Virus record (IMG/VR): IMGVR_UViG_3300033150_002791
Coordinates: 1-28,434 of that record
Source: a virus
Reading direction: 5' to 3' (one strand)
DNA: 28,434 nucleotides
The translations under genes were made by a program, and so were the position numbers. How positions within the stretch are numbered: the first letter of the stretch is position 1; every line of letters starts with the position of its first letter. Positions 3,036 to 27,584 of this stretch are shown here, in pieces. The notes under the pieces were generated by a model. It ran no database searches. It worked only from the letters and a program-made list of their open reading frames with translations, and had not been told where the DNA came from.

Positions 3036-3089
3036 AAAAAACCACCCCAGTTCGGGTAATGGGAGGGGCTCGGCTGGGGTGGTTTTTTT
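3036..3089. terminator. Bidirectional intrinsic terminator between convergent operons
   Basis: AAAAAACCACCCCAG (3036-3050) pairs perfectly with CTGGGGTGGTTTTTT (3074-3088). The G+C-rich stem is followed by a T-run on either strand. It closes the rightward late operon after 3018 and overlaps the last codons of the leftward operon, whose final stop is at 3088-3090. Confidence 0.9.
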
Positions 3090-3552
3090 ACATCGTATGC
3101 CCCCCAATCCACTGATTTCCTGATGGCTTGCGAATGCTTATCCTGTCTAAAAGCTTCTTATCTGCTGTAAAAGTTAAACTTCCCCCGTCAGAAAAAGAAA
3201 GTATAATAAGGCTTCGCCCTCTATCAATAGATAAATCCTTAATATGTGTAGAGGAGGGCGCCCCTGCTTTCTCCTCTTTAATTGGTTCTCCAATTGTTTC
3301 TTGGGTAGGCCCTTTTAGCATTTCTTTTACTTCTTGATATGCTTTCCAAATCTTTTCAATTGCTCGATATTCTATCTGCCTTACTCTTTCACCACTAACT
3401 CCTAACTTTTTCCCAATTTCTCTATAAGACATTTTTTCCTCGCCATCTAAACCATAATACATTCTAACTATCATTTTCTCTCTGCCCCCAAGTATATCGA
3501 TGTATCGGGGGAGAATTTCTTTTATTTTTTTTCTATCTATTTTTTTTGGCAT
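3088..3552 (-). CDS. Sigma-70 region 4-like transcription factor (154 aa)
   Basis: Residues 24-68 closely follow sigma-70 region 4: REKMIVRMYYGLDG, then the helix-turn-helix YREIGKKLGVSGERVRQIE and the helix AIEKI. Region 4 binds the -35 element and the RNA polymerase beta flap. Region 2, needed for -10 melting, is absent, so this is a region-4-only regulator or part of a split sigma, not a complete factor. Residues about 100-147 form an extra beta-rich domain, and the protein ends in WIGGHTM, shared with the acidic late protein. As the last gene of the leftward early block it is well placed to switch on late transcription. Confidence 0.8.
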   Translation of the reverse strand: MPKKIDRKKIKEILPRYIDILGGREKMIVRMYYGLDGEEKMSYREIGKKLGVSGERVRQIEYRAIEKIWKAYQEVKEMLKGPTQETIGEPIKEEKAGAPSSTHIKDLSIDRGRSLIILSFSDGGSLTFTADKKLLDRISIRKPSGNQWIGGHTM

Positions 3553-6707: not shown

Positions 6708-7008
6708 AAACTTTTCGCCATTCTTCTGCTTGTTGGTAACGCTGAAGATTGGCTTGTTTGTTTGGTCTTAAGTGAGGATAATCTTGAAAGACCTTTCTTA
6801 TTGCCCTATCAAGGGCGGAATATTTTGTTAATCCTCCCTCTTTTCCTTGTTTAAGCCACATTTCTTTTGTAATGCCAAAAATTAAACCATCATATTTTTT
6901 CCAATACTCCCATTCTAATTCCCTTCTATTATATCTCAATTTTGGCTTTTCGCAAAGTAATTTATATACTTTTTCTTCAATTGTTTTTAATTGCTGTTTT
7001 AGTTCCAT
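6688..7008 (-). CDS. Hypothetical protein (106 aa)
   Basis: Start chosen at ATG 7008, which overlaps the Cas4-like gene by 32 bases; an upstream alternative start at 7044 lies deeper in that gene. The protein is helical and basic, with conserved-looking aromatic blocks (RELEWEYWKKYDGLIFGITKEMW) and ALDRAIRKVFQDYPHLRP, possibly a winged-helix DNA-binding fold. It follows a nuclease in the recombination block. Family not recognised. Confidence 0.6.
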   Translation of the reverse strand: MELKQQLKTIEEKVYKLLCEKPKLRYNRRELEWEYWKKYDGLIFGITKEMWLKQGKEGGLTKYSALDRAIRKVFQDYPHLRPNKQANLQRYQQAEEWRKVYERKKD

Positions 7009-7609
7009 TTTCTTTTTTAACTTTTTTAAAGCATAAAGGAGCAAAGGGGCAGTATTTACATAACCAACTTATCTTACGAGGCGGGGCTTTTCCTTCTTTT
7101 AATGCCTTTTCTAATGTTGTTTTCCGTTCTATCATCTCTTTTTCAATCGTTTCTATTGGACGAGGATTAACTTTAAAGAACTGATGAGCAGGATATTTCT
7201 TTTCCAAATAAAGCAGGTATAAGTCGGTGACGGGTATTGAGTTGTGTGTGCATAAGACCAGATAATACTCTAATTGAGTGATGTGGTGTTCGTAGGGTGA
7301 AGAAGGTAGCGATTTACAGGTTTTCTTTTCTACCAGCGTTCCCTTTTCGTATTCATCAATTCTTCCCACAACTCCTTTCCATTCTAACTCTATTTCTCCT
7401 TGTTCTAAAAAATTTGCTAAATGGATTGCTCTACCCAACCAGAAATCATAAGCAGTCTCAATATCATAGAACTGACCAAGCGTTTTCTCATAATATGCCC
7501 TTCTTAAACACGGATACACAATACTTGTTACTGAAATTTTCCCAGAAGGGATATGGTCTTGGTCAAAAAGCCCCTCGTTAAATTTTTCCTCTAATTCTTC
7601 TATTGTCAT
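6977..7609 (-). CDS. Cas4/RecB-like PD-(D/E)xK nuclease with iron-sulfur cysteines
   Basis: The fold markers are in order: Cys34 (YPCLRRAYY), His63 in GRAIHLA, the motif GRIDEYEKGTLVEKKT with Asp85, Glu94 and Lys96, QLEYY (Gln112, Tyr115), and a terminal C-x2-C-x5-C cluster (Cys184, Cys187, Cys193). The four cysteines should hold a 4Fe-4S cluster, as in Cas4 and AddB. There is no cas1, cas2 or CRISPR array, so it is a phage recombination or end-processing exonuclease, not a CRISPR adaptation protein. RusA lies about 900 bases downstream. Confidence 0.88.
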   Translation of the reverse strand: MTIEELEEKFNEGLFDQDHIPSGKISVTSIVYPCLRRAYYEKTLGQFYDIETAYDFWLGRAIHLANFLEQGEIELEWKGVVGRIDEYEKGTLVEKKTCKSLPSSPYEHHITQLEYYLVLCTHNSIPVTDLYLLYLEKKYPAHQFFKVNPRPIETIEKEMIERKTTLEKALKEGKAPPRKISWLCKYCPFAPLCFKKVKKENGTKTAIKNN

Positions 7610-20499: not shown

Positions 20500-21768
20500 A
20501 TGCCACGCATAAATCTTTACGACATTCTATATCGAGGCGGATTATCTCCCGAAGAGAGAATTCAAAGAGAGGCACAAGAAGAAAAGGAAAGAGTGTTACG
20601 ACGATTAGATGAGGAATATCGCTATGCTGCAGAGAAAACTTTAAGGGAGGCGACTTTAAATTTCGCCAACGATCCTTATGGTTTTTCCTTAATGATGTTT
20701 AACGAATATTCGGCAATGGCGGATAGTTTAAGCGAGGCAATCGAGGAATTAGGCGATGAGGCCAATATTCAAATGCTGCAAACCAGAGATAAGTTTCGGG
20801 AAGAGGCAAATAAGTATTGGGCTGTTATTACTGCTATTGATGGAATTACTCGTGCCAGAGTAAAAGGAGATACTGAAAAAGAAAATTACTACCAAGAACG
20901 TCTCTCAAATTACGCCGTTGTTTATGACACAGAGCCAACGGGAGAAATTAGAACAATGCGAATCGAAAGTATTGCTGCCCTTCCTTCTAAATCTTATCCT
21001 ACAAACATTGGGATTACGGTAGCGGGAGTGACGGAAGACGCTAAACCTGTTATTAGTGCTGCCGATATAGAGAAGACGCCAGGAATGAGGGTGTTTGTAA
21101 GAGGGGTTAGTCCTGATTTTGCTCCTCAGGTTCGTTTAGGAGGATTTGTTTTAAATTGGTCGAAGCCAATTTATAAAGTGACCGCTACAGGAGATGCATT
21201 GCGAAAAGGACGAAAGGAAATCAATTGGGATTTTGGATTACAACAAATTCATCGCACAAGTTTTATTAGTAAGCCCCCAGGCTCTGTTGTAAAAGATAGC
21301 AAGGGAAAAATGTATTATGTCAACTATGACGGAAGCCTTTCATTGATTAAAAGCAGAAAACTTCTTGAACGTTTAGGGGTAGATTTTGAACAAGTATATC
21401 CTCTTGATCCTTGGGAAGAGGAAACCCTTCCTCCTGAAGAAGATTTAGCAAAGAGACGAAGCGATCCCGTTTTAGACCTTATATCAAAATACGAAGCAGA
21501 AGCGGAAGAAATCAGAAGGAAATATACTCCTCACCCTCTTGAGGTAAAAGTGGCAGAAACAGGGCGGAAGGTTTATCAATTAGCAAAAATGCCTATTACT
21601 CTTATGTTTGGAAGGAAGCGAAGAGAGGAGGAAGCGCAAAAACGCCAAGAGCGCCTTGCTCCTCCTCTTAGTGAAAAGCTTAAAGAATTAGAACTTACCC
21701 AACCTGTAAGTCGAGGGGAGTGGAGTGAGCTTGCAGAACCATTTAAGTCACTTTTCCCTAAGAAATAA
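20500..21768 (+). CDS. Structural-region hypothetical protein (422 aa)
   Basis: Helical N-terminal part (EERIQREAQEEKERVLRRL, DEANIQMLQTRDKFREEAN), then a beta-rich middle domain (PGMRVFVRGVSPDFAPQVRL, VLNWSKPIYKVTATG, SKGKMYYVNYDGSLSLIKSR) and a charged helical C-terminus. No motif or family is recognised. Its position among portal, large virion protein and scaffold genes suggests a virion or internal head component. Confidence 0.7.
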   Translation: MPRINLYDILYRGGLSPEERIQREAQEEKERVLRRLDEEYRYAAEKTLREATLNFANDPYGFSLMMFNEYSAMADSLSEAIEELGDEANIQMLQTRDKFREEANKYWAVITAIDGITRARVKGDTEKENYYQERLSNYAVVYDTEPTGEIRTMRIESIAALPSKSYPTNIGITVAGVTEDAKPVISAADIEKTPGMRVFVRGVSPDFAPQVRLGGFVLNWSKPIYKVTATGDALRKGRKEINWDFGLQQIHRTSFISKPPGSVVKDSKGKMYYVNYDGSLSLIKSRKLLERLGVDFEQVYPLDPWEEETLPPEEDLAKRRSDPVLDLISKYEAEAEEIRRKYTPHPLEVKVAETGRKVYQLAKMPITLMFGRKRREEEAQKRQERLAPPLSEKLKELELTQPVSRGEWSELAEPFKSLFPKK

Positions 21769-21769
21769 T

Positions 21770-24700
21770 ATGGCTGTTTTTCTAACACAAGAAGATATAA
21801 AGAAAATAAAAGGCTTTACACAGATCGGGGGAAGCCCCGATACTTTTTACTCTTTTCGTCCATACGATACGCAGGAGGAAAGAGAACCGAAAGGTTTTTT
21901 AATGAAAGCTCTTGATTATTATAGTAGAACTAATTATGCTGTTGCCAGTTTTGTTAATTCTTTGTTCGTGGAAAAGGAAGGTCTTGGCGAGGCAATGAGT
22001 GATGCTTGGAAGGGGTTAAAGGGAGAACAAAGAATGTTTTTTTCCGATGTGTTAGAAAATGCGGGAGTGAGAAATAAGTATATAAGAGCGATTGTGGGCT
22101 GGGCACTTGACGCCTTCCTCGATCCTCTTAACTGGCTTACTATAGGTGTTGGGCAGGGAACAAAATTGGGGCTTACTACTCTTTCTAAACAGGGACGATT
22201 GCTTTTACAAACTCGTCTCAAAAAAGATTTGCCTCGGTATACTGCTAAATTTTTAAAGGAGGTGGGGGAAAAGAAATTGGCACAAACAATGGCAAGAGAG
22301 GCAATAGAGGCAGAAGTTTTAAGAACCGCCCTTAGAAACCCCGCCAAGTATGTAGCCAAACCCGCCTTAAGGTATTTTGGGAGAAAGATTCCCATTGTTT
22401 CTAATGTTACTCAACCCGCAATTCAAAAACTTGGTGCTTTAAAAACAAGATTGGTAAGAAGGCAGCCAATGAGGTGGATTGGAAAAGCATTTATCGGGGA
22501 TGAATTTATTCTGAAACACTCTAAGGAATTTACCCCCCTTCAGAAAAATTTACTTGCCCTTGCTCGACAACAAAAATTATTAAGAGAAGCGGAGGGTTAT
22601 GCAGAGGCAGAAAAGTTTTTTTTCAAGGTGGCTAAAAAAGTTCCAAGGGTGACAGACAGAGAACGAATAATGAGGGCAATCGAAAAAAGGGAAATTTCCA
22701 AACTTCCCAAAAAATTGCAACCAGTTGCAAAAGAGCTTTCTGATTGGCTTAAAAAGAATATCACTGAACCAGAAATGAGGTTGGGGCTATTGCGAAGGTT
22801 TAGGGGTAAAAAACTCGAATATGTGCCTCACTATACACGTGAAAGGGTGTGGGGTAGAGGAAGGGGGCTTTATATTGGAATAACAAAAAGTGGGCAGCCA
22901 AGATATTTTGAGTCGCTTGAAGCCTTGAAAAAGGCAGGACTTACACCAATAGAAGATGTAGCTGTTTCTTTTTCGATGAGGTATGCGTATTCAAGAAATT
23001 TGATTGCATTTGATGATTATGTGCAGAAAATGGTTAATACGGTTGGAACAAAGATAGATAAAAAAACTTTTAGAAAATTGTTGGCTGGTGGAAAGAAACT
23101 TCCAGAAGGTTATGCAATTTATATACCACGACCCATAGTAAGATTTTACCCCTTATATTTTTCCAAAAAACCAATTTCGAAACAGAAACTAATACAAAAA
23201 GCCATAAATCTCCTTGACGAATTAGAGGGGATACGGGATTGGTCAAAGGGCGAGGTTCTGAAAATGATTCACTCTACTTCAGTTGGGAAGGCACTAAAAA
23301 TTACAGAGGATTTGCCAGTTTATCTTCTTCCGAAAGAGATAGCAGATATGCTTAATACTGCTTCTCCTTTTGTTTCTCGCACCACTTCTGACTTCTTGAG
23401 GTTTGCAGACAGGGTAACTAATTTTTGGAAAGCGTCTGTAACTTCTTGGTTTCCTGCTTGGCATTCTCGAAATGCAGAGTCTAACTTATGGTTATGTTTT
23501 CTTGGGGGAATGCAACGTCCCAGCGATGTAAAATATTTTATGCAAGCCTTCAAATTGCAGAAATATGGTTTTTTGAAGAGGCTTGGCAAGGAGCCAAAAG
23601 ATTTTGTCATAACACTAGGTAGCAAAAAATTCCGTGCTTCTCAGCTCTATGATATGGCAAAAGAGACAGGTGTTTTCACTGGTTGGTATATGAGGGAGCT
23701 TGGGGCTGGATATGAGAGAGAGTTGTTAAAAAGAGCGGGTGGTGTGCGAAGGGGAGCAGCAATGTTAGAGAGAGCGTTATTCGAGAAACCAAGAGCTGTA
23801 GGTTCGGCTGTAGAAAATAACGCCAGAATGGCCTTGTTTTTACATCGTTTAGCAAAGGGAGATGATTATCGGTCTGCGTCAAGGTTTGTAAAGAAATTTC
23901 TCTTTGATTATGGAGAGTTAACCCCGTTTGAAAAACAAGTAATGAGAAGAATTATACCCTTCTACTGTGTTCCAACAGATGCTGAAATACTTACTAAAGA
24001 TGGCTGGAAAAAATATAATGAGGTAGTTATTGGGGAGGAGGTTTTAACTTATGATTATAAAACAAAGAAATTGGTTTGGCAGCCGCTACAAGATAAGGCA
24101 GTGTTTGAGTATAATGGTCAGTTGATGAGATTAGGAAATACAAGAATGGAGTTTTTGGCTACTTTTGATCATAGGTGGGTTGTTAATGATGGCAAAAGAG
24201 AAAAAATTGTTCGTGGTTATCAATTAAGAAGCAACCACAAAATTCCTCTAACTGGCGATTATCAACCGAATGAGAGTATTTTAACGCCACGAGAGGCAGC
24301 AATTCTTGGCTGGATAGTAACCGATGGGTATTTCAGGTGGAGAGGGAATTATTTTGAGGCAGTAATTTATCAGCATCCTAAGAAATACGCAAAAGAAATT
24401 AGAAAACTGCTGGGAACGGATTGTTCCAGCGAGTTTGTTCATCCTGACAGTGGGGTTATTTGTTTTAGAATAAAGGCTTCTGCTTTAAAGAACATAAAAA
24501 AATATCTACGGAGCAAAGATGATTTAATGAGTATAGTGACAAGGCTGAACAAGGAAGCAATGGCAGAGATGAGGCGGGCTATGCTTATGGCGGAAGGTGG
24601 AATTAGTGGAAGAAAAAAGGATTGTCTATTTTTTACTCAAGAAGACAACAATGTGAGGGATGCTTTTCAATTCTTGTCTCAAATGCTTGGAGAACCTATC

Positions 24701-25510
24701 ATTCTTAAAAAGAGAGGAGGATATGTAAAGAAGCGAAGATATATGAAAGTTTTTGGAGCAATTGGCGTAGAGTGGTATTCTGGAAAAATATGGTGTCCCA
24801 AAACACCTAATGGGACTTGGGTAATGAGAAGGAATGGTGCGGTTATTATTACTGGAAACACCTGGCTCAGGAAGAATATCCCACTTCAACTTGAGCAAAT
24901 GGTAAAGCAGCCTGGTAAGTTTGCCCAGATAAAGAAAATGCAACACGCTGTAGAAAGTTTATCTCCTGCTCCAGATGAGAGATATTTGCCAGATTGGATG
25001 CAGGAAAAAGAATTATTTGTAAGAGTTCCTTACTACAAAGAGGGAAGTCCGTTATATATAAATCCCGACCTTGCCTTTCAGGATTTGGCTTATTTGAACC
25101 TCAAAGATCCTGATGTAATAAGATCGTGGTTTGCCAATCTTCATCCTGCGATTAAAATTCCTTTTGAAACTTTAACTAATTACAGCCTTTTTAGGGGCAG
25201 AAATGTGGTAGATCCAGATTTGCCTGGCGATATAGAGTTTAGGGAAGCATTGAAAGAAGAATTGCTTGATAGTTTAAGAATTTGGGGTTATAAAGAGCGC
25301 CTTTCCAGAGAAGACGTTGCAACCCTTCACAAAATTATAGACATAGTATTAGGAATTAAGGCTTATCCCTACGATGAGATTAAAAGTCGTTATTGGTATT
25401 TCCAAAGAAAAAGGCGAGAAGAAAATGCCTTAAGGCGTTATTATGAGAAAAAAGCCAAAGAAAAGCTTAAAAAGAAAAAACCCCTTATTTTGCCCTATGA
25501 AGGTTTGTAG
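21770..25510 (+). CDS. Large virion-region protein containing an in-frame intein (1246 aa precursor)
   Basis: ATG 21770 is chosen because it follows the upstream stop as TAATATG; an in-frame GTG at 21725 would overlap the previous gene. The mature extein product would be 948 residues after loss of the 298-residue intein (733-1030). The N-extein is helical and basic with a block FWKASVTSWFPAWHSRNAES shared in style with large phage virion proteins. Splicing restores IPFY-TWLRKNIP, a likely conserved motif. Its position suggests an internal head or DNA-injection protein; the family is not certain. Confidence 0.75.
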   Translation: MAVFLTQEDIKKIKGFTQIGGSPDTFYSFRPYDTQEEREPKGFLMKALDYYSRTNYAVASFVNSLFVEKEGLGEAMSDAWKGLKGEQRMFFSDVLENAGVRNKYIRAIVGWALDAFLDPLNWLTIGVGQGTKLGLTTLSKQGRLLLQTRLKKDLPRYTAKFLKEVGEKKLAQTMAREAIEAEVLRTALRNPAKYVAKPALRYFGRKIPIVSNVTQPAIQKLGALKTRLVRRQPMRWIGKAFIGDEFILKHSKEFTPLQKNLLALARQQKLLREAEGYAEAEKFFFKVAKKVPRVTDRERIMRAIEKREISKLPKKLQPVAKELSDWLKKNITEPEMRLGLLRRFRGKKLEYVPHYTRERVWGRGRGLYIGITKSGQPRYFESLEALKKAGLTPIEDVAVSFSMRYAYSRNLIAFDDYVQKMVNTVGTKIDKKTFRKLLAGGKKLPEGYAIYIPRPIVRFYPLYFSKKPISKQKLIQKAINLLDELEGIRDWSKGEVLKMIHSTSVGKALKITEDLPVYLLPKEIADMLNTASPFVSRTTSDFLRFADRVTNFWKASVTSWFPAWHSRNAESNLWLCFLGGMQRPSDVKYFMQAFKLQKYGFLKRLGKEPKDFVITLGSKKFRASQLYDMAKETGVFTGWYMRELGAGYERELLKRAGGVRRGAAMLERALFEKPRAVGSAVENNARMALFLHRLAKGDDYRSASRFVKKFLFDYGELTPFEKQVMRRIIPFYCVPTDAEILTKDGWKKYNEVVIGEEVLTYDYKTKKLVWQPLQDKAVFEYNGQLMRLGNTRMEFLATFDHRWVVNDGKREKIVRGYQLRSNHKIPLTGDYQPNESILTPREAAILGWIVTDGYFRWRGNYFEAVIYQHPKKYAKEIRKLLGTDCSSEFVHPDSGVICFRIKASALKNIKKYLRSKDDLMSIVTRLNKEAMAEMRRAMLMAEGGISGRKKDCLFFTQEDNNVRDAFQFLSQMLGEPIILKKRGGYVKKRRYMKVFGAIGVEWYSGKIWCPKTPNGTWVMRRNGAVIITGNTWLRKNIPLQLEQMVKQPGKFAQIKKMQHAVESLSPAPDERYLPDWMQEKELFVRVPYYKEGSPLYINPDLAFQDLAYLNLKDPDVIRSWFANLHPAIKIPFETLTNYSLFRGRNVVDPDLPGDIEFREALKEELLDSLRIWGYKERLSREDVATLHKIIDIVLGIKAYPYDEIKSRYWYFQRKRREENALRRYYEKKAKEKLKKKKPLILPYEGL
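23966..24859 (+). mobile_element. Intein with LAGLIDADG homing endonuclease
   Basis: 298 residues. Block A starts with Cys1 (CVPTDAEILTKDGW); block B has TFDH (Thr66, His69). A LAGLIDADG motif ILGWIVTDGYF (113-123, Asp120) and a second, weaker copy RRAMLMAEGGIS (Glu210) lie between. The end is RRNGAVIITGN followed by Thr+1. The last Asn is the expected splice residue, but the usual penultimate His is Gly and no block-F His is evident. Splicing joins Tyr to Thr. It is a selfish element; the endonuclease is probably active or recently so. Confidence 0.92.
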
Positions 25511-25607
25511 AGCAATTATAGATTTTATTATTGGTTTTTTCATTTCAATAGGATGGCTGATTTTATATTATTGGCTTGGCGTTTGGTTACATTCTCGCGT
25601 AGGTTGA
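25497..25607 (+). CDS. Very small membrane protein (36 aa)
   Basis: It starts within the end of the large virion gene (14-base overlap, other frame). After MKVCR the protein is one long hydrophobic segment (AIIDFIIGFFISIGWLILYY) continuing to WLGVWL, with a short basic end. The stop overlaps the -35 of the following promoter. It could be a second holin, a spanin-like or a membrane-targeting peptide; the only support is the clean hydrophobic frame. Confidence 0.4.
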   Translation: MKVCRAIIDFIIGFFISIGWLILYYWLGVWLHSRVG

Positions 25608-25632
25608 CTTGTTTTTATGAAATTGATAAAAT
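25604..25632 (+). promoter_or_regulatory. Promoter before the scaffold and capsid genes
   Basis: TTGACT (25604-25609), 17-base spacer, TAAAAT (25627-25632). The predicted start falls near the AAAGGTCG element (25638-25645), so that element would lie at the 5' end of the message. Confidence 0.6.
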
Positions 25633-25640
25633 AAATTAAA

Positions 25641-25645
25641 GGTCG
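25641..25645 (+). promoter_or_regulatory. AAAGGTCG leader element before the scaffold gene
   Basis: AAAGGTCG with GGTCG ending 22 bases before ATG 25668; AATTAAC follows in the gap. It nearly repeats the leader of the 10718 gene. Confidence 0.45.
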
Positions 25646-25667
25646 CAAATTAACAAAATCCAAACTT

Positions 25668-26381
25668 ATGGCTGATACAAAAGGAGACGCTACTCCAGCC
25701 CCATCTGAAGTTGAGGAAGAAGTTCCTCAACAGGCGGATACTGAGGAAGCCACTCCTCAGGAGGGCGGAGAAAGCACTCCACAAACTCAAACAGAGGAGG
25801 ACGGAGTAACCTCCTCTCAAAAAGTGGCAGAACTCCAAGCAGAATTAGAGCGGCTCCGAAAAGAGGTAGAACACGCAAGGAATATGCAGTCTATTGCAGA
25901 TAAGAAGGCAAGAGAAGAAAGGCGAGCCCGTCTCAAATTAGAGAAAGAGATTAAAAGAATTCGGGAAGGTAAAGTAGAAGAAGGAGAACCGTCTTCTACC
26001 GAGCCAGAGGAAGGAATTAGTAAAATTGCAGTTAGGGGAAGGGTGGCAGAGATGTTGCTGCGCAACCCTGATTATCAGAAGGTTGTGGAGCAAGATCCTA
26101 CCCTTAAAGAGGTTTTGCTAACCAACCCGATGGCGTTAGTAGAAGATGCTCTTGATGTAGAAGATGCGGTAGATCAGATTCGAGAAAGAATCGAAAAGCG
26201 CCTTACAGAGGCATCAAATAAAGAATCAGCCGCCAAAAAGGCGACTGACCAAAGGAAAGTGGAAGCAGGAGCCGTTCAGCCTCCTGAAAACCGCCTTCCC
26301 GACGAAGAAGTCAGAAGGCGGGAAGCCTTAAAGAAGGGCAATATCGAGGAGGCAATTTTATCACGCCTAAAAACAGGATAG
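25668..26381 (+). CDS. Capsid scaffolding protein (237 aa)
   Basis: It lies immediately upstream of the major capsid gene. The first about 50 residues are acidic and Pro/Thr/Gln-rich (disordered). A strong coiled coil follows (VAELQAELERLRKEVEHARN ... KLEKEIKRIREGK), then a helical C-terminal half (NPDYQKVVEQDPTLKEVLLT). Acidic N-terminus, coiled coil and position are the normal features of a tailed-phage scaffold that drives procapsid assembly and then leaves. No protease domain is seen. Confidence 0.75.
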   Translation: MADTKGDATPAPSEVEEEVPQQADTEEATPQEGGESTPQTQTEEDGVTSSQKVAELQAELERLRKEVEHARNMQSIADKKAREERRARLKLEKEIKRIREGKVEEGEPSSTEPEEGISKIAVRGRVAEMLLRNPDYQKVVEQDPTLKEVLLTNPMALVEDALDVEDAVDQIRERIEKRLTEASNKESAAKKATDQRKVEAGAVQPPENRLPDEEVRRREALKKGNIEEAILSRLKTG

Positions 26382-26384
26382 AAA

Positions 26385-26389
26385 GGTCG
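26385..26389 (+). promoter_or_regulatory. AAAGGTCG leader element before the major capsid gene
   Basis: GAAAGGTCGC begins just after the scaffold stop; GGTCG ends 31 bases before ATG 26421. GTCG can pair with CGAC directly before the start codon (26416-26419). Confidence 0.45.
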
Positions 26390-26420
26390 CTAAACAAGAT
26401 AGTCCCTCCCGAAAACGACT

Positions 26421-27584
26421 ATGGCTTTAAGTGCAGCTTCTGGATTAGCAGCCTATAGCATTCCAGCAGGTGTTAAGAAGTTAGATTTGTCAGAGGAATT
26501 GGCTGAAGTGATTAGAACCGATAATACCGCCTTGATTTCTCGTGTTGGCGTTGGTCATTTCACTGCTACTCAGTTGACACACAAGTGGCTTGAGGACAAG
26601 TTGAATCCTAACACTGCTACATTGAATGGTAATTTAGACGCTTCTTCTACCACTGTAAATGTGGCAAGTGGTCAGGGTAGCAGGTTTAAGGTAGGAACTA
26701 TTTTCAAGTTCAACGAGAAAGGTAAAACAGAAATGTGTAGAGTTACTGCTGTTTCTGGTGATGCCTTGACAGTTGAACGAGGTTATGGTTCTACCAGTGG
26801 AGAAACTCACGCTGATGGAGCAACAATAATGATCATCGCCCACACGAAACAGGAAGGTTGGGAGCCAAATAAGGAAGATTGGTCTCAAGAGCGAACCTCG
26901 GTCTACAACTATCTCACCACAATGGGTTATGGTATTACCATTACCCGAAGGAGACAGTTAGTAGACCACGCCGCTATTCCAAGCGAGTTCGCCCATCAGA
27001 GTGCCTACCGATTGAAAGAGTTTATGAGACAACTTGATAGCTCGGTCATAAACTCTATTAGATCGGCTTCCGAAGGAGGCGCTTCCGACTATTCCTCAAT
27101 GGGCGGTATCATTGAGTTTGTTTCTCAGGCTGGAGGTAATACAAATAGCACCGACGAGAAACTCTCTCCAAGCGTAATGAATGATATGATTAAGCAAATC
27201 TGGGACGACGGTGGAATGGTTGCTGGCGGAAGATTAGTCGCTATTGTCGGTGGTGTCCAGAAGAGGATCATCTCTCAATTCGACCAAGCCTACAGAAGGT
27301 TAGATTATGACTCTAACGCTGTAGGATATGTCGTTGAGAGATTTATCTCTGACCTCGGTTTCGAGGTAGAGATTGTTGTTGATCCTTGGATGCCAGATGA
27401 CACCATTGTTATCGGCGACATTAACCGCCTTAGAATTGGACCCCTTCAAGGTGATGCTGTTGGAGTAGAAGATTTGGCTAAAACTGGAAGACTTATTCAG
27501 GCAATGCTTTCAGGAACTTACACCTGCGAGGTTAGGAATGCTAAAGAGGCTTGGGCAATTCATACGAATTTGAAGTTAAGTTAA
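26421..27584 (+). CDS. Major capsid protein, SU10-like / HK97 fold (387 aa)
   Basis: It follows the scaffold gene and matches the SU10-like (DUF5309) group. An N-arm with LSEELAEVIRTDNTALISRV comes first, then a small inserted beta domain (about 72-140, LDASSTTVNVASG ... DALTVERGYG). The spine helix region RRRQLVDHAAIPSEFAHQSA and a C-terminal A-domain with SDLGFEVEIVVDPWMPDDTI and IGDINRLRIGP follow. Length fits. It forms the icosahedral shell. It should be among the most strongly expressed genes, and its leader carries the AAAGGTCG element. Confidence 0.87.
   Translation: MALSAASGLAAYSIPAGVKKLDLSEELAEVIRTDNTALISRVGVGHFTATQLTHKWLEDKLNPNTATLNGNLDASSTTVNVASGQGSRFKVGTIFKFNEKGKTEMCRVTAVSGDALTVERGYGSTSGETHADGATIMIIAHTKQEGWEPNKEDWSQERTSVYNYLTTMGYGITITRRRQLVDHAAIPSEFAHQSAYRLKEFMRQLDSSVINSIRSASEGGASDYSSMGGIIEFVSQAGGNTNSTDEKLSPSVMNDMIKQIWDDGGMVAGGRLVAIVGGVQKRIISQFDQAYRRLDYDSNAVGYVVERFISDLGFEVEIVVDPWMPDDTIVIGDINRLRIGPLQGDAVGVEDLAKTGRLIQAMLSGTYTCEVRNAKEAWAIHTNLKLS

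Follow-up and report, generated by a model that had tools for sequence, protein, structure and literature searches.

A putative mobile intein at a conserved motif of a phage protein encoded between the portal and major capsid genes

The virus record IMGVR_UViG_3300033150_002791 of IMG/VR was analysed over its whole length of 28,434 bases, referred to below as the window; labels such as L137 denote the loci with which it was compared. One of its genes, lying between those for the portal and the major capsid protein, is interrupted by an insertion of 298 codons, which is very probably a mobile, bifunctional phage intein. This reading is based on an open frame, intein motifs, a predicted fold, an exact empty site, relatives at the same site, a scattered distribution and purifying selection. 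To judge from its preserved residues, the intein is probably active.

Positions 23966-24859 read from Cys1 to Asn298 without a stop, with IPFY/CVPT at the left and ITGN/TWLRKN at the right junction (junctions are marked by slashes throughout). Together with the empty site described below, this bears out an earlier, sequence-only reading of the window, which had placed an intein of 298 residues at exactly these bases. The motifs named in that reading, block A, a TxxH block B and two LAGLIDADG-like motifs, are all present in the translation, as are the Cys1 nucleophile, the C-terminal Asn298 and Thr+1 expected of an intein, and the acidic residues D120 and E210 are kept in the two homing endonuclease motifs. 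The structure predicted by AlphaFold for nine locus sequences combines, in the intein, a HINT fold with a LAGLIDADG domain at a mean predicted local distance difference test score (pLDDT) of 91.6 and a predicted template modelling score (pTM) of 0.88, and VIA-align matched it to solved inteins with Z values of 15-22.5. The TliVMA intein with its endonuclease was matched at Z 22.5 over 286 residues (root-mean-square deviation (rmsd) 4.5) and PI-PfuI and PI-SceI at Z 17-20, and the LAGLIDADG fold also matched I-DmoI. TliVMA, PI-PfuI and PI-SceI, all class 1 inteins with an endonuclease, thus share the whole-length fold of HINT plus LAGLIDADG domains (Z 17-22.5); the window intein differs from them in its sequence (about 11-14% identity), its smaller endonuclease domain (the whole intein has 298 residues), its Gly-Asn end and a Cys at F:4. 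The LAGLIDADG-bearing intein that had been proposed is therefore supported by its motifs and fold as well as by the empty sites and same-site relatives.

We infer the splicing chemistry and the endonuclease activity to proceed as follows. The HINT domain, formed by approximately residues 1-110 and 250-298, would excise itself from a 1246-residue precursor and join IPFY to TWLRKN, giving a host protein of 948 residues. Cys1 would most likely start splicing through an N-S acyl shift aided by Thr66 and His69, after which the chain would move to Thr+1, Asn298 would cyclise with Gly297 replacing the usual His, and the ester would finally become a peptide bond. The central LAGLIDADG domain would act on gene copies that lack the intein, cutting them at the PFY/TW-RKN codons, which are strongly conserved, and repair of the cut would copy the intein into the empty site. 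The host protein would have to be spliced to work.

Empty sites and intein-free homologues

The decisive comparison in favour of an intein is that with L137 (contig QMZU01000082.1, filed under an Aenigmatarchaeota metagenome-assembled genome (MAG)), the closest relative found, which is intein-free and has the same downstream genes. Window bases 22069-23965 align to L137 4099-2200 at 67.7% DNA identity and bases 24858-27058 to L137 2201-1 at 85.0%; the alignment stops at window base 23965 and resumes at 24860, with no base missing or added. L137 reads ...CCTTTCTAC/ACCTGGCTCAGG... where the window reads ...CCCTTCTAC/intein/ACCTGGCTCAGG..., and the junction TTCTAC/ACCTGGCTCAGGAA is common to both. 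A second occupied and empty pair, L153 with the intein and L101 without it (87-89% DNA identity), breaks exactly at the ends of a 906-base intein, and bases 5300 and 5301 of L101 are adjacent. An in-frame insertion that homologues lack, with exact empty sites, was thus found, as is characteristic of an intein. Towards the capsid gene, the window and L137 become more alike: identity is about 67% upstream of the intein site, about 75% over the C-extein and about 90% within the capsid gene itself, possibly reflecting mosaic ancestry; a sharp recombination break at the intein flanks was considered and rejected, because the change is gradual.

Scanning IMG/VR for codons of PFYxWxRKNxP, a pattern that fixes PFY, W, K and N, returned at least 120 loci. 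Among the matches listed, 118 of 120 encode a relative of the extein, and in all 118 of these intein-free homologues PFY is directly joined to T (114), A (3) or S (1), followed by W. As these motif residues are preset by the pattern, the counts demonstrate two other things: nothing separates the residues on either side of the junction, and homology extends over the remainder of the protein. The uninterrupted FY-TW join anticipated for intein-free homologues is thereby confirmed, and a homologue retaining the insert as ordinary protein sequence was looked for among them and not seen. In a 35-row alignment of the host protein, only six columns are invariant, and these include P, F and Y of the motif; its T, W, R, K and N are nearly invariant. 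The intein thus sits at the most conserved point of the host protein.

Relatives at the same site and signs of mobility

With a pattern of PFY followed by Cys, 10 further viral contigs were identified, each with an intein of 297-312 residues at the same codon and with 35-49% identity to the window intein. C1, T66, H69, W71, D120, W276, C277, P278 and N298 are invariant among the same-site inteins. Searching by the C-terminal junction, which does not presuppose Cys1, added one further intein (L168, truncated before its residue 1) and three chance matches. No copy was found in GTDB genomes with the pattern requiring Cys1, and neither a single-protein search of viral contigs with the N-extein nor its tblastn comparison with cultured phages gave a match. 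A single-sequence search of the PDB returned no intein match.

Intein-bearing rows are scattered in the host-protein tree, so that five or more gains or losses have to be placed on strongly supported branches, whereas the full-length intein tree places the same-site inteins on one branch (82/65; 84% of bootstrap trees), which includes L268, from a much longer host protein. This disagreement between the two trees fits the prediction of homing. When the splicing domain alone was used, L153 and L155, both same-site inteins, were separated from the others, though weakly supported in that position; since the full-length tree unites them with the others, one origin at this site is favoured, though not proved. 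Between the inteins of L151 and L157, the nonsynonymous divergence (dN) is 0.26 and the synonymous divergence (dS) about 3 (saturated), and purifying selection between relatives is strong. Identical intein coding sequences occur in different contigs (the pairs L148/L149 and L155/L156). In two relatives of the host protein, L172 (open reading frame + 284, residues 2636-2949) and L224 (residues 117-429), a closely related intein lies two codons later, PFYSW/C... instead of PFY/C..., and this lineage appears to have shifted its insertion site within the same motif.

Active site and wider lineage

The sequence-only reading had remarked on two oddities of the C-terminal junction, a Thr at +1 and a penultimate Gly. 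Thr is one of the standard +1 residues. The penultimate Gly turned out to be ordinary in a wider lineage, which was surveyed with the block F signature WCPxTxxxTWV; this signature presupposes Cys F:4 and nothing about the intein ends, and all counts from it are among the matches listed. At least 95 complete inteins were delimited in at least 92 loci, in many different host genes. All 100 readable N-termini are Cys, 105 of 109 C-termini are TGN, the +1 residue is Ser, Cys or Thr, and Trp B:12 occurs in 73 of the 95 delimited inteins; the same-site copy in L152 ends in SQN. Four loci (L239, L212, L273 and L003) carry two inteins in one open frame, L003 being a terminase with one VHN-ending and one SGN-ending intein. 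Splicing with a penultimate Gly has also been published: it was described in mycobacteriophage class 1 inteins (Kelley et al. 2016, PMC5050341), among which the intein of the Bethlehem recombination directionality factor (RDF, gp51) splices completely with Gly and slowly with His (PMC5050341). These inteins, likened here by published description, have the same Cys1, LAGLIDADG endonuclease and penultimate Gly, whereas the Bethlehem intein lies in another host gene and in other hosts. In cultured phages, homology to the window intein or its relatives revealed the portal intein of Gordonia phage Woes (L162) and a Phapecoctavirus DNA polymerase intein (L292), which have the same Cys1, TxxHxW, WCP and TGN end but differ in gene and site, have Ser or Cys at +1 and share little sequence identity (for L292, 38% across 74 N-terminal residues).

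What had been overlooked is a class 3-like triplet, Trp B:12 (W71), Cys F:4 (C277) and Thr G:5 (T296), standing together with Cys1 and a class 1-like TxxH. The combination of these three residues is the class 3 signature (PMC3196547, PMC7664689). On the one hand, Cys F:4 and Thr G:5 are shared with class 3 inteins, of which Msm and Mch DnaB1 also have Trp B:12 (PMC7664689, PMC7891396). Among solved splicing domains, the class 3 split intein AceL NrdHF (6zgq), which has Met at B:12, comes closest by Z, being the top VIA-align match to the splicing domain alone (Z 18.7, rmsd 2.1, 143 residues) ahead of Hedgehog, Ssp DnaB and others at Z 14-17. On the other hand, class 3 inteins have no nucleophile at position 1, where the window intein has the Cys of class 1, and the six class 3 phage inteins fetched as references (L286-L291) have other residues in place of the conserved Thr at B:7 and end in THN instead of TGN. 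In the splicing-domain tree, these six join the Cys1 inteins of mycobacteriophage Pinkcreek (98%), apart from the window lineage; the tree is short (157 columns) and is given moderate weight, and its L003_TerL1 row is given none. The idea that the window lineage was the progenitor of class 3 inteins was rejected on the same tree, in which class 3 lies elsewhere. Going by the N-terminus, we assign the intein putatively to class 1; its active site resembles that of class 3, and either cysteine may be the one that acts first.

Splicing could instead start at Cys277, either following the class 3 mechanism or in a relay from Cys1 to Cys277 to Thr+1, with Cys1 as an accessory or a relic. We regard this as unlikely but as the most serious alternative. 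The full triplet, the invariance of W71 and C277 among the same-site inteins and the structural proximity to AceL NrdHF all fit it. The Cys at every readable N-terminus of the wider family is what would be expected if Cys1 were needed; moreover, Thr B:7 is class 1-like, and the class 3 inteins group with other Cys1 inteins, away from the window lineage. The triplet residues are also compatible with class 1, in which Cys F:4 has been recorded before, in inteins of polyphyletic origin (PMC3196547), and B:12 is often a large hydrophobic residue, Trp included (PMC7891396); F:4 is most often Asp, then Cys (PMC4031507). Rather less probable again is the bolder proposal of a widespread, undescribed phage intein lineage with two potential initiating nucleophiles, Cys1 and the class 3 Trp/Cys/Thr set, that would splice by relay through both.

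Several points weigh against an active, mobile class 1 intein in a virion protein. The intein lacks a penultimate His and has Cys in place of Asp at F:4, so that its sequence does not by itself fix the first nucleophile; support for the same-site clade is modest; and the library models match the window intein itself poorly (TIGR01445, E = 0.019; PF14528, E = 4.8e-4, marginally below the curated cut-off). The function of the host protein is suggested by gene position and by weak matches (Z 7.4 or less, Foldseek E 0.1) of a moderate-confidence model (pLDDT 69.5), which was built for a homologue and not for the window protein itself. Because of the weak library scores, the intein question was judged by comparison with relatives, and the 10 same-codon inteins and the exact empty site in the closest relative place it far beyond chance. 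A dead intein or endonuclease, that is, a degraded insert that neither splices nor homes and leaves the host protein interrupted, would account for the missing His and for library scores below the cut-offs, but it is improbable, given a full-length open frame, the retention of all splice residues and of D120 and E210, the strong purifying selection between relatives, an otherwise invariant host motif and a Gly-Asn end that is the family norm. That the insert is no intein but an ordinary domain kept in the mature form of a variable phage protein is very improbable, since, despite the great variability of the host family outside the motif and its long versions with extra stretches, two DNA pairs have exact empty sites, the insertion lies inside the single most conserved motif, intein blocks stand at both ends and the HINT fold matches a solved intein at Z 22.5.

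Host protein and gene neighbourhood

The plus-strand frame 21725-25510 is open for 1261 codons from its listed start, GTG at 21725. The ATG at 21770, codon 16 of this frame, follows directly after the stop of the upstream gene and is likely to be the better candidate for the start of the host gene; with this start, removal of 298 residues gives the 948-residue product stated in the sequence-only reading. The features of the gene are collected in Table 1.

Table 1. Positions in the window of the host gene, the intein and its motifs
Feature	Position	Strand	Remarks
Intein-bearing host gene	21770..25510	+	Likely ATG start; 1246-codon precursor, 948-residue spliced product
N-extein	21770..23965	+	Ends ...RRIIPFY; from homologues
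PFY, left half of the invariant PFY-TW-RKN motif split by the intein	23957..23965	+	From homologues
Intein	23966..24859	+	298 codons, Cys1 to Asn298; exact empty site in L137
Block A, CVPTDAEILTKDGW, Cys1 nucleophile	23966..24007	+	C1 invariant in same-site inteins
Block B, T66-F-D-H69-R-W71 (Thr B:7, His B:10, Trp B:12)	24161..24178	+	T66, H69 and W71 invariant among same-site inteins
First LAGLIDADG motif, 113-ILGWIVTDGY-122	24302..24331	+	Asp120 invariant
Second LAGLIDADG motif, 204-RAMLMAEGGI-213	24575..24604	+	Glu210; Asp or Glu in all relatives
Block F, WCP, Cys277 at F:4	24791..24799	+	W276, C277 and P278 invariant
Block G, ...IITGN, Thr296-Gly297-Asn298 (G:5 to G:7)	24851..24859	+	From alignment and wider C-terminus survey
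C-extein	24860..25507	+	Begins with Thr+1 (TWLRKN...)

The host had been described as a head-region virion protein and, as such, as an unusual home for an intein. Its gene does lie between the portal and major capsid protein genes, in the order TerL, portal, LysM protein, 422-residue protein, host gene, scaffold-like gene and SU10-type major capsid protein, parts of which are kept in L134 and L137; the family itself has yet to be characterised, and structural comparison points at best to T7-type internal core or ejectosome proteins. Virion-type hosts are indeed uncommon, but they are already known: portal-protein inteins are listed for mycobacteriophages (PMC5050341), and the intein annotated in the portal protein of Gordonia phage Woes is related to that of the window.

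Neither extein was meaningfully matched in Pfam, NCBIfam or PHROGs, and homologues of the host protein weakly match a PHROG named tail fibre. In cultured phages (Cellulosimicrobium phage DS1 and Microbacterium phage Shocker, gp37 in the latter), the host-family gene adjoins peptidoglycan-cutting genes, and PHROGs scans of neighbour genes at other loci yielded little. The homologue modelled for the family was L012. Named matches of this model in BFVD are mostly large polyvalent-domain phage proteins of the LPD type, and some neighbours are named LPD38, although LPD38 found no Pfam match in the window exteins or five homologues. In the PDB set, its four best VIA rows are core or ejectosome proteins of T7, E1004 and cyanophage A4 (Z 7.4, 6.7, 6.1 and 5.1; next 4.2); the T7-type core match found by Foldseek is likewise weak, and there is no sequence match to the T7 gp16 family. 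Packaging and injection have been proposed for polyvalent proteins (PMC5512222). Our best guess from these model comparisons is an internal, injected, ejectosome-like virion protein, which is a lead and not a finding. Giant versions of the family, of 2,800-3,400 residues (L071, L026, L023 and others), have long extra stretches upstream of PFYTW.

Elsewhere in the window, residues 64-136 of the SU10-type major capsid protein (26421-27584) match tail fibre PHROGs and are perhaps an inserted surface domain. The minus strand encodes a sigma-70 region 4 protein and a Cas4-like PD-(D/E)XK nuclease, at 3088-3552 (-) and 6977-7609 (-). The closest relatives of the window phage, L134, L137 and L145, lie in short contigs that are binned with Pacearchaeota, Aenigmatarchaeota and Neomarinimicrobiota MAGs. 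The LysM and sigma-70 region 4 proteins suggest a bacterial host, and these archaeal and Neomarinimicrobiota bins may therefore be wrong, or the host unclear.

On the whole, the claimed oddities of this intein are ordinary within a large phage lineage, and the host protein and the double-nucleophile active site are the parts worth following. The window offers a clean, base-exact example of an intein that moved into what is probably an internal protein of the virus particle, and the motif it entered is conserved in more than 100 diverse phages. Were the host a T7-like ejection protein, failure to splice would presumably leave it non-functional, and infectivity would then be gated by splicing. 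The lineage, with its Cys1, Cys F:4, TGN end and, usually, Trp B:12, makes it testable whether the nucleophiles of class 1 and class 3 can both work in a single active site, and this could also be tested in cultured phages, in the Gordonia phage Woes portal and the Phapecoctavirus DNA polymerase. The conserved insertion site may further serve as a marker for annotating an abundant, unnamed phage protein family.

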